Below, piece after piece: positions 40,849 to 63,914 of a DNA stretch of 64,000 bases (position 1 is its first letter; each line of letters begins with the position of its first letter). Location of the stretch: NCBI RefSeq assembly GCF_964204645.1, contig NC_134025.1, forward strand, positions 24,830,001 to 24,894,000, given 5' to 3'. The DNA is from Tubulanus polymorphus (lineage: Eukaryota; Nemertea; Palaeonemertea; Tubulaniformes; Tubulanidae). The notes under the pieces are model-generated. The model did not search any database. It saw only the letters and a program-made list of their open reading frames with translations, and was not told the DNA's origin. A program made the position numbers and the translations under genes.

Positions 40849-43208
40849 CTATATCTTTTGAATCTGTATCTGGAATTTACCTACAAAAATTAAGACATAA
40901 ATTAAAAATAATATATATATACCCTACCAATAACAGAGGGAAAAGAAGTTATTTCTCTAAAGAAATCACTCAATTTTATTGTACCATATGAAAAAATTTA
41001 GTTCTGTTTCTATAGTCGAGTTAGATGTTTTATTTGATGTTTTTGAAAATATTTGTTATTTGAAAATTAATATAATTCCTTCTAAATCAATATATTTTCT
41101 CAAAAGAAGAACAAAATCTTTTAAAATGCAAAAAATCATCGCCCGGTATGGGACTCGAACCCAGGACCCTCAGGTTAAAAGCCTGATGCTCTACCGACTG
41201 AGCTAACCGGGCTCATAGTGAAGCGTCATTGATAGTTATCAATAGCGTTGACGTCAGGGTTAAGCGACACATGTTGGCAAAGTGTCAAGTATACATAATC
41301 CATAAGTACAATCCACAATACAAGCCACATCCACAATACAAGTCACTAGAGTGGGCAAATGACTGCCATACAAAGACTCTAAAATGAATTCCATGGTTCA
41401 AGCATTTATTCCCAAGTCTTCGAAAGGAGGTTTGATTAATCATAGGATGGTGAAATTTTTGGTTAAGTTACTGAAATAATGGTCAACATGACACTCATTC
41501 TGATAAGGCCCAAAATAGTTTTTATTCTAGGGTATTTTTTCATATCTCAATCGTATTTCTGTTTATGACTAATAAACAACGTGCATGTCACTTAAATAAA
41601 CATAATTTGAAATCTTGAAAACAAAACTTATTTATAGGTATAATATTCAGCTTCTGTTCATGATGGTAAATCTATTTCATTGTGTAGGGACAAATCCATC
41701 AATATCATTTCATATTCTGCTAAATTATTTTCTTGAAGAGATATAATCTAAAACTTACAAGCAGGCATGGTCGTCACATCTGCAGTCACCACACAATGTA
41801 TTCCAAGATTAGCTAGTGCCCCACGTATTAAACCACATGGAAAAGCCAAATACTGAAAAATTATGAAAATTTCATTATACATGGTTCGTTAAGCATATAA
41901 CCCTCACTGGATACATGGATCTTTAAAATGTACCTTTGGTGCCATTTCCAAATATTGTTTTCCATTTGATATTTGAGTAAGTAATCTAAATTTGTTATCT
42001 TGTAATACATAAACACCCTAGAAACAGTAAAAGAAAGTCATTACACCAACTTGCAACAGAAACAACAAGCCTTATATTCAAATAGAATAGGTAGGTAGAA
42101 TCACCTGATGGTTTGTTCTTAAATTATCAATTTGTTTCTTATAAAGGGCAGTCCAGAAGTCTTTACATATAAATTTCATAGTATCGAGTTCATCTTTATA
42201 TCTGGGACAATCCTTAGTAAATCTGTGCACAGAAAAGATATAATATTAATGTCAGTGAAGTTGAATAGCTAATAGTTAATTCATTATCATCAGCAAACAC
42301 TTTGGGGAATCTAATTTTTCTATTTACCTTTCGACAAGTCTTTGTCCGACTTGATAGCCCATAGATTCAAGTTTCGAAATGTACACATCCTATTAAGGGA
42401 AAAGTACATGAATTACAAAACTAAACCTAATAACACCATAAGTTCAAAACTTAAGCCCTTTAGGCTCTTTTAGATCACTCCAGCTCTGGGAATTCTGGGA
42501 AAAACATAATTTAGTTAAAATCATGCGGTCTCAATTATTGATCTAGTTATTTATTTTTCTGCAATCCTTCCAACCCAAACCCAATATGGGAAAAACTTGA
42601 AAAAAAAATAGTTTTTTCATTTCTATTCACTGTTCTTTCCTTCCCTATTAAAATGCTGGCATGGAAAACATTTCTTTTTATTCATTATTTTTTCCCATCA
42701 CCTTTCCATTTTTTTTGGAAAACATCTATCCTAATAAATGGGCGTCCATGATGCCCACTTGGCAGTTTGAAACCAATTAGGCTAACAGATTAGCAGATTA
42801 TCGATTTTACATAAATCTATTACTTTGATACGGAGCCCCTGTGGTTGAAACATATCACTCTTTAAGTACTCTTCATGTAAGAGAGGGCCTATCCTGTTTG
42901 ACAATTTAATTTATCTTAAGAAATTAATGGTACAAAATAATAATTAACTTTATTCAAATACGGTACACACCGCATATACGTACTGTCAAACCGTATCCTA
43001 CTGTCTGTCAGGTGCTGCCACCATCTCAAATACTGGTCGGTTCATACAGTATTATTTGGGGGTTCAGCGATTAAATTCACCATTGCAACAACTTATATCG
43101 ATAAATAACTAATCTACATACCTTTTCATCTTTCCGAACAGTACGTAGCACGTGTGATACTATCTCCATGTGAAGATATTCATAAATCGCATCGCTATTT
43201 TCACCCAT
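40849..43208 (-). CDS. TRAPPC6B: TRAPPC6B, TRAPP complex subunit 6B
   Basis: Core subunit of the TRAPP tethering complexes, which activate Rab1/Ypt1 for ER-Golgi traffic. Six exons: 43122-43208, 42328-42389, 42105-42222, 41934-42017, 41759-41852 and 40849-40880, summing to 477 nt (158 aa, the same length as human TRAPPC6B). All introns are GT-AG with matching phases. Blocks nearly identical to human: RFTKD, YKDELDTMKFICKDFW, KKQIDNLRTNHQG, YVLQDNKFRLLTQ and YLAFPCGLIRGALANLG. The final exon codes only ten codons and restores the conserved C-terminus (MPACKFQIQIQKI). Reading through the preceding donor gives MPACKF-stop, which a simple ORF search would report. A tRNA gene lies in the last intron. 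The gene is divergent with VTI1B, separated by a large repeat element. Confidence 0.95.
41140..41212 (-). tRNA. tRNA-Lys (anticodon UUU)
   Basis: A 73-nt cloverleaf on the minus strand. Acceptor stem GCCCGGT pairs with ACCGGGC, discriminator G; A box TAGCTCAGTCGG; anticodon stem TCAGG/CCTGA around loop CTTTTAA giving UUU; B box GGTTCGAGTCC. A T-run (TTTTTT) just 3' on the same strand (around 41131-41136) suits a Pol III terminator. It sits in the last intron of TRAPPC6B, on the same strand. Confidence 0.95.
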
Positions 43209-43283
43209 TTTCCCTCTTGTTTTCGGTGGTAGGCACACTTATTCCAAGGCGCGCGACCTCGAACCCGGAAGTAAATCATTTAG
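43209..43283. promoter_or_regulatory. TRAPPC6B-side half of a split bidirectional promoter
   Basis: Only 75 bp separate the TRAPPC6B start codon from the outer edge of the repeat element. It includes CCGGAAGT (43266-43273), a consensus ETS/GABP site common in animal bidirectional promoters, and a CpG-rich GGCGCGCGACC block. Its partner half is 47082-47157, next to VTI1B. Function is inferred. Confidence 0.45.
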
Positions 43284-46200
43284 GTCTGTCTGCAGAGTTT
43301 CCAGAACCTGTCATGTCAGGGCCCAAGACCTGACATGACAGGTGGGACCTCAGGTGACAGGTCGATTCGCTAAAATGAAAATTGTTATGACTGAACCGAT
43401 GATAGGCGATTAGAAGATATGATAGGCGCGGATTTACAACAAATCATAGCCGATAAGAACACAAAGAACATATCGTAGTGCTTTCTGAATATATTATTCA
43501 AAAACAAAAAACAAACTATGATGTGTTATAAATTCATTTAAGAATTTATGTTTGTCCGTTTATAAATAGTTGTTGAACTATATCGCCTTATAATAATAAA
43601 GATGGAATGATTGTGAATTATTGGAGAACATTGAACGAATTGTTTACAATTAATTTATTTTTTTGTAACACGAAACATAAAAATATCAAGATCAGGCAAA
43701 ATGATACCAGTAGTGCCTTATGTAATCATAATCAGTATTAATAACAATCATTATACTCATTAAGATTAGGCCCTATATTATTATATATTATTATTAATTA
43801 CTCGCAATATAATTAATTAACCAAGTGTACATACAATTTAAAAACATTTAGGTCCAAGCTTATAAGTTGACATAGATAAATTAGACATAACACTGATTAA
43901 TTAGTGAGGCCTCACACGGCAACGCGCGCCATTTTGCAGAGCTTCGGGACCTGAGGTGACAGGTCTGCATTAAAACTGATGAAATGAAGGAAAACTTTAA
44001 TTTTTATGGTCTCTTTATAGCAATGAATATAATATAAATTGCTAACCATGGATATAGTTAATCTTAAGTTACTATAAAACAATAATTTTGAAGCGAGACC
44101 TCACACGGCAGCTCGCGCCATTTTGCAGAGCTTCTCGGGACCTGTGGTGACAGGTCTGCACTAAAACTGATGAAATGGAAAAAACTTTACTTTTTATAAC
44201 CTTTATATAGTAATAAGTATAATAAATTGCTAACCATTGATAGAGTTAATCTTAAGTTACCATAAAACAATAATTTTGAAGCGAGACCTCACACGGCAAC
44301 GCGCGCCATTTTGCAGAGGTTCTCGAGACCTGTGGTGACAGGTCTGCATTTAAACTGATGAAATGGGAAAAACTTCTCTTTTTATGGTATCTTTATAGTA
44401 ATAAATATAATATAGATTGCTAACCATGGATATAGTTAATCTTAAGTTATTATAAAACAATAATTTTGAAGCGAGACCTCACACGGCAGCTCGCGCCATT
44501 TTGCAGAGCTTCTCGGGACCTGAGGTGACAGGTCTGCATTAAAACTGATGAAATGAAGGAAAACTTTAATTTTTATGGTCTCTTTATAGTAAAGAGTATA
44601 ATATAAATTGGTAACCATGGATAGAATTAATCTTAGGTTACTATAAAAGAATAATTTTGAAGCGAGACCTCACACGGCAGTTCGTGCCATTTTGCAGAGC
44701 TTCTCGAGACCTGTGGTGACAGGTCTGCGTTAAAACTGATGAAATGTAAAAAACTTCACTTTTTATGGTATCTTTATAGTAATGAATATAATATAAATTG
44801 CTAACCATGGATATAGGTAATCTTAAGTTACTATAAAACAATAATTATGAAGCGAGACCTCACACGGCAGCTCGCGCCATTTTGCAGAGCTTCTCGGGAC
44901 CTGTGGTGACAGGTCTGCATTAAAACTGATGAAATGAAGGAAAACTTTAATTTTTATGGTCTCTTTATAGCAATGAATATAATATAAATTGCTAACCATG
45001 GATATAGGTAATCTTAAGTTACTATAAAACAATAATTTTGAAGCGAGACCTCACACGGCAGCTCGCGCCATTTTGCAGAGTCGTCGGGACCTGTGGTGAC
45101 AGGTCTGCATTAAAACTGATGAAATGGAAAAAACTTCACTTTTTATGGTATCTTTATAGTAATGAATATAATATAAATTGCTAACCATGGATATAGGTAA
45201 TCTTAAGTTACTATAAAACAATAATTTTGAAGCGAGACCTCACACGGCAGCTCGCGCCATTTTGCAGAGCTTCAAGGGACCTGTGGTGACAGGTCTGCGT
45301 TAAAACTGATGAAATGAAGGAAAACTTTAATTTTTATGGTCTCTTTATAGTAAAGAGTATAATATAGATTGCTAAACATGGATAGAATTAATCTTAAGTT
45401 ACTATAAAACAATAATTATGAAGCGAGACCTCACACGGCAGCTCGCGCCATTTTGCAGAGCTTCTCGGGACCTGTGGTGACAGGTCTGCGTTAAAACTGA
45501 TGAAATGAAGGAAAACTTTAATTTTTATGGTCTCTTTATAGCAATGAATATAATATAAATTGCGAACCATGGATATAGGTAATCTTAAGTTACTATAAAA
45601 CAATAATTATGAAGCGAGACCTCACACGGCAGCTCGCGCCATTTTGCAGAGCTTCTCGGGACCTGTGGTGACAGGTCTGCATTAAAACTGATGAAATGAA
45701 GGAAAACTTTAATTTTTATGGTCTCTATTATAGTAAAGAGTATAATATAGATTGCTAAACATGGACATAGTTAATCTTAAGTTACTATAAAACAATAATT
45801 TTGAAGCGAGACCTCACACGGCAGCTCGCGCCATTTTGCAGAGTCTTCGGGACCTGTGGTGACAGGTCTGCATTAAAACTGATGAAATGAAGGAAAACTT
45901 TAATTTTCATGGTCTCTTTATAGTAAAGAGTATAATATAGATTGCTAAACATGGATATAGTTAATCTTAAGTTACTATAAAACAATAATTATGAAGCGAG
46001 ACCTCACACGGCAGCTCGCGCCATTTTGCAGAGCTTCTCGGGACCTGTGGTGACAGGTCTGCATTAAAACTGATGAAATGGAAAAAACTTCACTTTTTAT
46101 GGTATCTTTATAGTAATGAATATAATATAAATTGCTAACCATGGATATAGGTAATCTTAAGTTACTATAAAACAATAATTTTGAAGCGAGACCTCACACG

Positions 46201-47081
46201 GCAGCTCGCGCCATTTTGCAGAGCTTCTCGGGACCTGTGGTGACAGGTCTGCATTAAAACTGATGAAATGAAGGAAAACTTTATTTTTTATGGTCTCTTT
46301 ATAGTAAAGAGTATAATATAAATTGCTTACCATGGATATAGGTAATCTTAAGTTACTATAAAACAATAATTATGAAGTGAGACCTCACACGGCAGCTCGC
46401 GCCATTTTGCAGAGCTTCTCGGGACCTGAGGTGACAGGTCTGCATTAAAACTGGTATAAATTGAAAAAAAACTTCATGCTTTAAATTGATGAGTAGATTT
46501 AAAATCAGTCTCAATAAAATCAGTTTCTATATTGCATTCGGCTCTTTTACATGTACATCATAAAGACAATGAATATAAATAGTGAGACTTCATGACTGAT
46601 GACAGTGAGGAGTGTTGCCGAACTGTGATATAGTGAGCAGATAATTTTCAGTGTCTTATTGCGGAAACGAAATATCAAGACCTCGATTCATCTGGCGAAA
46701 ATATTCTCTTATAATGTGCTCTTACTTCTACATTAATTAATTCATCTACTAAATTAAAACTTATTTTTTTCCCTTAAATAAAGAAATAAGTCATAGTTTA
46801 CACATAAATATTTTCTTCTTATAAATCAACCTTTCAAATGAATTATTTGTCAGAACATTTTCCTTATCGTTATTGTTGAATCATTTTCGATATTAACGAC
46901 GGGTCAGAATATTCATTCAACTCAAAATGTTCTTCCATTCGTCTAGCACGTCGATATTTCGCTGTTTCGTCAAATATTGTCATGAGTTTGGGTTTTTTCG
47001 GGACCTGACATGACAGGTCAGACCTGTCATGTCAGGTCTTGGGCCCTGACATGACAGGTTCTGGAAACTCTGCAGACAGAC
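43284..47081. mobile_element. Satellite-bearing TIR element between TRAPPC6B and VTI1B
   Basis: The outer 60 bp at the left (43284-43343) are the exact reverse complement of the right end (47022-47081), starting GTCTGTCTGCAGAGTTTCCA. Each terminal repeat is itself a foldback: ACCTGTCATGTCAGG, a short centre, then CCTGACATGACAGGT. Between them lie ~570 bp of AT-rich unique sequence, a 14-copy satellite array (43914-46454), and ~570 bp more unique sequence. No transposase frame exists, so it is non-autonomous. No clear target duplication is seen. Superfamily unknown. Confidence 0.75.
43914..46454. repeat. Tandem satellite array, ~190-bp monomer, 14 copies
   Basis: The landmark CCTCACACGG recurs at about 43920, 44099, 44287, 44477, 44668, 44858, 45049, 45239, 45428, 45620, 45811, 46001, 46192 and 46383, a period of 188-191 bp (179 for the first interval). 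Each monomer has a GC-rich head (GCAGCTCGCGCCATTTTGCAGAG), an 18-bp palindrome-like GACCTGTGGTGACAGGTC, then an AT-rich body. Two monomer subtypes differ near ATGAAGGAAAACTTTAA versus ATGGAAAAAACTTCAC and partly alternate. Confidence 0.95.
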
Positions 47082-47157
47082 ATCAATCAAATTGTTAGAT
47101 ACTATTTGCAACTCTCTGGATTAAAACGAACGCTAATCCCCCCAAAATACAACGAAA
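47082..47157. promoter_or_regulatory. VTI1B-side half of a split bidirectional promoter
   Basis: The 76 bp between the right edge of the repeat element and the VTI1B start codon. It must hold the VTI1B 5' UTR and perhaps the start site. With 43209-43283 it would form a ~150-bp divergent promoter if the element were absent. No TATA box is evident. Confidence 0.35.
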
Positions 47158-49062
47158 ATGTCATCGCATAAGCTCGAAGAGCTAGAAGATGATTTCAATC
47201 TCTTGAGGAATACACTGAACCACAAAATAAATGAGAAATTACCAAACGCATCCGGAGGTGAGTTTACATTTCCGGGTTTCCCCGCCATCGCTTGCCAGAG
47301 GATGATCTGTCAAACGTCAAATAGATTTTGATGAATATATTTATTTGATATTACAGAGGAGAGAAAGAAATTATGTAGAGAAGCTGAAAATCTATTGGAA
47401 GATGCTGCATTACATGTGAGAGAAGGCCTTTATTGATGACATTTCATTTCCACTTTACCAAAAAAGTCTTTCAAATGAAAAACCGTGAAAAGCATACCGA
47501 ATTGAACATATACATTTCGGATTACTGAAAAAAGATAAAAGAAGGAAATCAACAATAAGCAATGAATTGTGCAATGTCGATGTCATAAACAGTTTTGCAT
47601 TAATAGTTGCATGAAACTACCCTTGGCCCTAGTCAGTAACCTGACTGTGGTTTAGTTTCACGATCGGATATTTTCACAAACCACATATAAGCCCATCCGA
47701 TTATAAAAAGCTTACCACCAACAATTAGGTAACTAACTACCTTGGCCCTACCTTAGTGAGTGACCAAATCATTGGTGGTAAGCTCCAAAATCAGATAGGT
47801 TTGTGATTTGTGATTACTGATTTATCCCCTACCTATTCTCCTGAATACCAGACAATCATGTGTTGCATGCCCTAGCTATCCTTACAATTTACTCTAAAAT
47901 CATCTCCCAACTTGATCATATTTAGAGCTTGGCCTAGCCTATAGAATGCTTGCATTGGGTGTGGAAGGGTTTGTAAATTCAAGCAATGATTACTGGTATT
48001 TCACACAGATCCAGTCGATGGAAACAGAATTAAAGAAGGCACCAGCTGTATACAGGAACCAAATGATGAGTCGATTGCGCGGCTACAGACGAGATATTGA
48101 TCAAACCTCCAGACAGTTGGTAAACATCTAACAACAGCAGAAAACAACACCCATCTTTCCGCTTTTGATGCGATAATTGTATTTGATACATTATTTTTTG
48201 TTTTTTAGCGAGAAGCAAAGAGCAACTTCGGTAGTTCTGACAGAACAAATTTATTCGGAGATAGTTCAGAAACTGATCGTTGGGAGGTATGTTCATGAGT
48301 GACAGTTCACAGTCCGATTCAGCCAACATAACCTTCTAAAAACTTGAATATATGTTAAAAAGTTGTTGACCCTTCATGTCTATACCATCCAACACAAATA
48401 TCACTCAAATTTTCCTGGTCCAAATAGATCGTAACTGAGTGGATGAATATAAATTATCTCTGCTTGATTGTTCAATCTATTCCATTCTAAGTCAGAAGAA
48501 CGAAGACAACGTGCCCATTTAATGCAAGGGACTCACGCGTTGAGTCGTGCATCAGATGGAATCCGGAGAGCTCAGGTTATATCAGCTGAAACTGATCAGA
48601 TAGGCGTCGATATCATCGATGAATTAGGCAATCAAAGAGAATCACTGATGCGTACGAAAGATAGGGTAGGCCTAAATGTGTGAAAATATCTCTGCCCAAT
48701 CACAATGTAGTCAGGATGAATTTCCACTGTATCGGCTAGATTCAAATTTAACTCTCTAAATGACTGTGGGACTGGGTGCTGTATTACATGTCTTGTTACC
48801 TATAAATTTGTTTTCTCCATTTTTCAGCTCCATGAAACCGATGAAGGTTTATCTAAAAGTAGAAGAATTTTAAGAAAAATGGCCATGGGGTGAGTTGTGC
48901 GGTATAAAAAATATCCACACAATCAGTTTTATCTGTTTTCTTTCATTTCCAAATTTTTTGTTTTTCAGAATCATCACCAATAAGGTTATACTCGTCATAT
49001 TGATAGTTTTAGAAGTAGCTATCTTAGGAGGATTAGTCTACTACAAGTGGTTCAGCAAATAA
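47158..49062 (+). CDS. VTI1B: VTI1B, Qb-SNARE
   Basis: Tail-anchored Qb-SNARE acting in late endosome/lysosome and trans-Golgi fusion. Seven exons: 47158-47257, 47357-47415, 48009-48119, 48209-48286, 48492-48665, 48828-48889 and 48969-49062, summing to 678 nt (225 aa; human about 232). All junctions are GT-AG and in phase. An N-terminal helical Habc-type region (residues about 1-95) contains APAVYRNQMMSRLRGYRRD. The SNARE motif spans about 130-193 (AETDQIGVDIIDELGNQRES), with the zero-layer glutamine probably Q164. A C-terminal membrane anchor lies at 201-220 (VILVILIVLEVAILGGLVYY), almost identical to human VTI1B. It is divergent from TRAPPC6B. A poly(A) signal lies near 49320. Confidence 0.95.
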
Positions 49063-63269: not shown

Positions 63270-63914
63270 ATGGCAGCGACGAAAAAGCCTCTTCGGTTTG
63301 CCCACAGCGAAGGCCACACAGATTTATGTTATAACGACCCGGGAAGGTTTGTAGTTTGATTTCAATGCTTTAATTGATCATAATTCAATGATTTTTCAAA
63401 CCCGGAAGTGATTTCAAATAAAATTCAAATTAAATATTTATTCTGCAGGAAGTTTTAAAAATCCGTATGTATCCTATTTGAATGATCAGCCCTGAATAAT
63501 TGAATTTTTGAATCGTAAATTTCTTGCAGTCATATTTTTACTTGTGGCGCTGATGGAGATGTGCGAGTATGGGCTGGTATCGAAGACGATGATGCTGAAT
63601 CGTACAGAGTTGGTGATAAAGCTTTCGCCGTTGCGTTTAAAGTATGACGTTCCTCAACAACTGATGTTTTGCGAAAGAGAGGATGAAATCCAATTGATAA
63701 TCTCAATCTTTATTAGGCCTACTGAGTTTCTAATTTATTTACGTGAATTGTTGCCGTTTCAGGATAAACATTTTTATGCAGCTACTGAATCTAATGTCAT
63801 CCAAGCACATACATTCCCAGATGGAAATCCTGATGGCACCATAGCCAGATTTACTTCACCTGTTACGCAAATTTGCATAAATAAAGATGGAACAAAACTG
63901 GTGGCTGGTGCAAG
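63270..63914 (+). CDS. WDHD1: WDHD1 (AND-1/Ctf4), N-terminal part
   Basis: Replisome hub linking the CMG helicase to DNA polymerase alpha. Three exons are visible: 63270-63346, 63530-63641 and 63763-63914, joined in phase; the donor at 63915 (GCAAG|gtatgg) leads out of the window. The 113 residues present match the first WD40 repeats of human WDHD1: KKPLRFAHSEGHTDLCYND, FTCGADGDVRVW, IEDDDAESYRVGDKAFAVAFK, and NVIQAHTFPDGNPDGTIARF (human NTIQVHTFPEGVPDGILTRF). The rest of the WD40 domain, the SepB domain and the HMG box would lie to the right. Confidence 0.95.

Follow-up and report, generated by a model that had tools for sequence, protein, structure and literature searches.

An ETS site is the preferred insertion target of a DNA transposon family in the nemertean Tubulanus polymorphus. 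The family is young and non-autonomous and comprises about 50 copies, each carrying a short satellite array; one copy lies in the window, i.e., the 64,000-nucleotide stretch analysed here (G000:C1:24830001-24894000 of a 267.8-Mb assembly). Cut-and-paste transposons usually have weak, short target preferences; in this family, almost half of the young copies are found at the same base position in ACCCGGAAGT, which suggests an element homing on gene promoters. The reading that joins these observations, to which a probability of roughly 0.8 is assigned, is that of a young cut-and-paste-type family with terminal inverted repeats (TIRs) and an internal array, mobilised in trans and preferring an ETS-type promoter motif. 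That such a family addresses Pol II promoters via a host ETS motif at base-pair register, either through recognition of the motif by the transposase or through tethering by an ETS protein, is probable. Searches of an open-access literature collection returned no report of ETS-directed transposon insertion and, as far as they show, the ETS-register target preference is a newly described feature.

The element, its host promoter and its copies

The window copy separates two divergent genes, which an earlier note on this DNA had named correctly: on stitched exons, Pfam finds TRAPP (PF04051, E 3.8e-34) in TRAPPC6B and both V-SNARE (PF05008, E 1.8e-16) and V-SNARE_C (E 1.9e-13) in VTI1B. The locus is composed as follows:

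41751..43208, minus strand: TRAPPC6B; start codon at 43208, exons read to about 41751; Pfam TRAPP
43263..43272, plus strand: ETS-type target motif ACCCGGAAGT, with the insertion cut inside the motif (CCCGG/AAGT), placed by the target register
43277..47088, plus strand: complete non-autonomous TIR transposon, 3,812 bp; ends common to all aligned copies, with an 8-bp duplication (TSD) immediately outside in other copies
43277..43283, plus strand: left 7-bp tip CATTTAG; 40 copies with 0 mismatches
43284..43343, plus strand: left TIR, 60 bp; at least 40 genomic left-end copies at 98-100%
47022..47081, minus strand: right TIR, 60/60 identical to the left TIR in the window copy
47082..47088, plus strand: right 7-bp tip ATCAATC, from the end alignment and the end-pattern search
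47158..49059, plus strand: VTI1B; start codon at 47158; Pfam V-SNARE and V-SNARE_C

The 3.8-kb element reported earlier exists, as do its exact 60-bp TIRs, but its borders had been set too far inward, at 43284-47081. In an alignment of the ends of 30 copies, the left end reads CATTTAG-GTCTGTCTGCAGAG and the right end CTCTGCAGACAGAC-ATCAATC, each 7 bp outward of the reported one. CATTTAG precedes the left TIR in every copy, ATCAATC follows the right TIR in young copies, and the TSD lies beyond these tips; the element thus spans 43277-47088, with the 60-bp TIR inside two tips that differ in sequence. From the corrected edges, the start codons of TRAPPC6B and VTI1B are 68 and 69 bp away, in place of the 75 and 76 bp given before. 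The window element contains no ORF of 130 aa or more.

Ends confined to this locus would have refuted the earlier proposal of a mobile satellite carrier; instead, the same ends (GATTTAGGTCTGTCTGCAGAG) are present at about 50 loci in the 268-Mb genome. The best 40 candidates for a 66-bp left-end query, located on nearly all large contigs, are all 98-100% identical (34 copies at 100% and 6 at 98% among the matches listed), and end-pattern searches at the 21-mer level recover about 50 left and 45 right ends. Among 40 paired copies, 33 are bordered by a perfect 8-bp TSD just beyond the corrected ends; most are 1.2-6.6 kb long, two measure 11.4 and 12.2 kb, and one further paired copy is a 17.7-kb span without a matching duplication. 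Together with a variable monomer number, these common ends and 8-bp duplications bear out the mobile carrier.

The window copy itself is damaged on its right side. Two further features concern its duplication, the left one being placed by the register of other copies:

43269..43276, plus strand: expected left TSD AAGTAAAT (half of the ETS motif)
47089..47092, plus strand: AAAT, possible remnant of the right TSD

Where AAGTAAAT is expected on both sides, the flanks have only AAAT in common, i.e., 4 bp of the 8-bp TSD. The right TIR reads GGGCCCAAG, in place of the GGTCTTAAG of other copies; it has the left-TIR-like GGGCCC where comparable copies have GGTCTT and, judged by its sequence, looks converted. 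The 60/60 TIR match is peculiar to this copy: 13 of the 20 other short copies read (L065-L084) show 3-4 mismatches over 60 bp, and the remainder differ in the structure of the right end or in other ways. The missing half of the TSD and the left-like right TIR both fall at the right junction, suggesting a single event, in which repair or conversion of the right end would have brought in left-TIR sequence at the cost of half the duplication. The loss of an intact TSD is also what would be seen if a satellite array with inverted repeats had formed in situ at this promoter and never moved; given about 50 loci with common ends and monomers and 33 copies with perfect TSDs, this origin is refuted, its probability being next to nil.

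Whether, as the earlier note offered as an alternative, the TRAPPC6B and VTI1B promoters now derive from a co-opted element is a separate matter. Its edges lie 68-69 bp from both start codons and the ETS motif is now left on the TRAPPC6B side only, as befits such a candidate role; the window copy, however, is young and nearly identical to other copies, and the remaining flanks could drive the downstream genes, making co-option unlikely.

The two long relatives, L061+L062 (C11, 11.4 kb) and L063+L064 (C3, 12.2 kb), have GATTTAG and ATCATTC ends, intact 8-bp TSDs, and 1-2 monomers plus several unrelated tandem repeats each; the short family possibly descends from them. The insertion site of the 12.2-kb relative is ACTT/CCGGGT. 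Two other arrangements were observed. At one locus, L083 (G000:C3:12916799-12921091), two left ends accompany nine inverted monomers, and the flanks (GAAAAACC and GAAAAATC) look like an 8-bp duplication but for a single mismatch. Ends reading CTCTGCAGACAGACCCCACTC are present at G000:C1:2262022, C1:24576479 and C3:2181937 and possibly constitute a third subfamily of related ends.

An ETS-type motif hit in register

When the flanks of the 33 copies with perfect TSDs are joined, the empty sites yield the consensus AACCCGG/AAGTNNNN, the last eight bases of which are duplicated. GGAA is present at one offset (-2, with GG/AA at the edge of the duplication) in 15 of these 33 sites, and at every other offset in at most two. 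One or both flanks were read for 71 insertion sites. The GGAA core is in register at 23 of these, most of them contributed by the young class (21/49, vs 2/22 in the older class). The single-offset GGAA has a binomial p of about 8e-24 with the window's own GGAA frequency as background, and exact ACCCGGAAGT stands in register at 9 of the 71 sites where genome frequency predicts about 0.0004 (p about 6e-37), values that assume a uniform background and independent insertions, so that their exact size is not meaningful and the concentration at a single offset is the robust part. The preference is strong, not strict: over half of the insertion sites lie off an in-register ETS core. In 13 cases the motif adjoins the left end and in 10 the right, which fits free orientation of the element. 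Homology among the insertion flanks does not extend beyond short words around the motif, arguing that the family does not insert into another repeat.

The ETS site that the earlier note had seen in the divergent promoter is indeed there; its position is the insertion point itself, and the cut falls within the motif. Genome-wide, ACCCGGAAGT occurs 1,477 times vs 190 for a reversed control, a 7.8-fold excess which indicates that the decamer is likely a functional motif; its binding by ETS proteins in this animal is an assumption based on the sequence. It occurs twice in the window, in the TRAPPC6B/VTI1B promoter and at 63402-63417, about 100 bp before an ORF at 63508, and the closeness of this second site to the ORF start supports a core-promoter role of the motif in this genome. 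Some insertion flanks have genes nearby (a dynamin-family gene, an MFS transporter and an eIF-1A exon within 0.8 kb), and several start a gene that reads outward from the insertion.

Accessibility alone could bring insertions to such places: a transposase devoid of motif specificity would hit open promoter DNA, where ETS sites simply happen to be frequent. General promoter targeting would predict ETS cores that are close but out of register, and six further copies have one within about 40 bp. However, accessibility is unable to set a base-pair register, and the motif is found at one exact offset in 15 of 33 empty sites and at no other offset more than twice; this explanation is therefore disfavoured and very improbable. 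Tethering, in which a promoter-bound host ETS factor docks the transposase and the register reflects a rigid protein-protein-DNA complex, is a more serious possibility, if still a doubtful one. It would account for copies that lie near the motif yet off it, and for a preferred sequence that is a full ETS-type consensus (AACCCGGAAGT) rather than a short palindrome. Against it, half of the motif is duplicated, and occupancy by an ETS protein should block strand transfer at that point; direct DNA recognition is also simpler.

Under the joint reading of a trans-mobilised family with an ETS preference, a transposase would mobilise the copies with the 8-bp duplications that the family shows. The target complex favours AACCCGG/AAGTNNNN, the last 8 bases being duplicated, and this preference brings copies into core promoters or next to them, in the present case the short divergent promoter of TRAPPC6B and VTI1B. 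Insertion of the family accounts for the presence of a satellite array in the middle of a housekeeping divergent promoter. More generally, in-register landing of nearly half of the young copies in a promoter motif offers a natural promoter-directed integration system and a means of bringing satellite arrays into compact promoters; the family also allows a test of whether the transposase copies or borrows ETS recognition.

The internal array and its subterminal palindrome

The array and a related palindrome near the left tip are located as follows:

43346..43363, plus strand: subterminal imperfect palindrome GACCTCAGGTGACAGGTC (putative transposase site), 70-87 bp from the tip, read from the sequence and its 20-bp match to the monomer
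43906..46453, plus strand: tandem array with GACCTG(T/A)GGTGACAGGTC in every one of its 14 monomers (about 191 bp), from TRF and the anchor count

The earlier count of 14 monomers of about 190 bp holds: TRF gives a period of 191 and 13.4 copies, and anchors count 14. Across the family, the monomer number ranges from 1 to 21 in the 22 copies read; for some copies, reading covered just the ends. For 119 of 204 monomers, the nearest relative is in another element, a pattern which implies that arrays are carried around by transposition; length differences among copies probably arise by unequal exchange or repair.

The monomer and the subterminal region have GGGACCT..GGTGACAGGTC in common (20 bp; score 30, vs a maximum of 23 in 2000 shuffles), and this palindromic 20-mer is, by a modest margin, the most conserved stretch of the monomer (204 monomers across copies). 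In Galileo, a member of the P superfamily, an 18-bp THAP-transposase site occupies positions +63 to +80, counted from the end, and tandem repeats contain further sites (PMC3688188). The palindrome of the window family is similar in length, lies at 70-87 bp and recurs in each monomer; Galileo differs in its long foldback TIRs and its identified transposase, none having been found for the window family. By this analogy, GACCTG..GACAGGTC is a candidate transposase-binding motif of the array, with GACCTGTGGTGACAGGTC as the candidate site in the monomer and the TIR version 70-87 bp from the tip as its counterpart. Since the palindrome is repeated in each monomer, the array most likely amounts to a series of additional, putative transposase-binding sites that would travel with the element.

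Relation to known elements and the source of transposase

Donax tandem-repeat MITEs and Xenopus Xstir and miDNA4 are reportedly MITE-like elements with variable numbers of internal tandem repeats, and no ETS target is known to us for any of them. The window family is like them in its variable internal repeats and has the traits of a tandem-repeat MITE: dispersed common TIR ends, an 8-bp TSD, a variable array and no transposase coding capacity. Tetris of Drosophila virilis, in the part of its report drawn on here, is a non-autonomous TIR element with tandem repeats of about 220 bp, an autonomous source that is unknown, 8-9-bp TSDs in complete copies and a 37-bp stretch common to TIR and repeat unit (Genome Biol Evol 2014, PMC4079207). 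The window family shares its non-autonomy, tandem repeats, similar TSD length and a stretch common to TIR region and repeat. In Tetris, long foldback TIRs contain the repeats, which expand into heterochromatic satellites, whereas the window family has one central array between 60-bp TIRs; nor does that part of the report mention a target such as the ETS promoter motif.

The satellite carrier is thus of an already known kind, described in Tetris, Galileo and the tandem-repeat MITEs, and the earlier suggestion of a distinct class is not upheld. Helitron/Helentron pearl elements have no TSD and no long TIR, in contrast to the 8-bp TSD and 60-bp TIR found here; because TIR elements with arrays were known before, this contrast is no ground for novelty.

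The Drosophila P element makes 8-bp TSDs and inserts near promoters, though we know of no ETS-site register for it; it resembles the window family in both traits, but no P transposase has been linked to the latter. Anopheles P elements and P-MITEs also have an 8-bp TSD (PMC1562414). Dada elements have 6-7-bp TSDs and target snRNA or tRNA genes (PMC3706591). Like the window family, these DNA transposons have insertion targets defined by sequence, and outermost tips that are unlike each other, with subterminal inverted repeats; they differ from it, with its 8-bp TSD at ETS-type sites of Pol II promoters, in TSD length and in targeting small-RNA genes.

The 8-bp duplication fits both the P superfamily (7-8 bp) and hAT; the family is assigned here to neither. 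No transposase-coding relative emerged when P, hAT and KDZ domains were sought near complete copies. P domains (PF12017, PF21787) are present in the genome, none of them near any listed end, and the family is therefore not filed as a P element. Genome matches to the hAT domain PF05699 are not near complete copies, except for one fragment that also occurs elsewhere and sits inside the 17.7-kb span without a TSD; those to the KDZ (Zisupton-like) domain PF18758 are not near listed ends. The 11.4- and 12.2-kb relatives were considered as the autonomous partner and rejected, having no ORF longer than 142 aa between stops.

A sample of unpaired ends (L125-L134) yielded a C2H2 zinc-finger ORF in L132, which was rejected as the family transposase because it belongs to a separate, very abundant element inserted there. 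This AT-rich element, inserted in a family copy at L132:1-653 (G000:C4:17577932-17578584), has 1,958 first-look candidates at 97-99% identity, apparently the product of a recent large burst unrelated to the TIR family.
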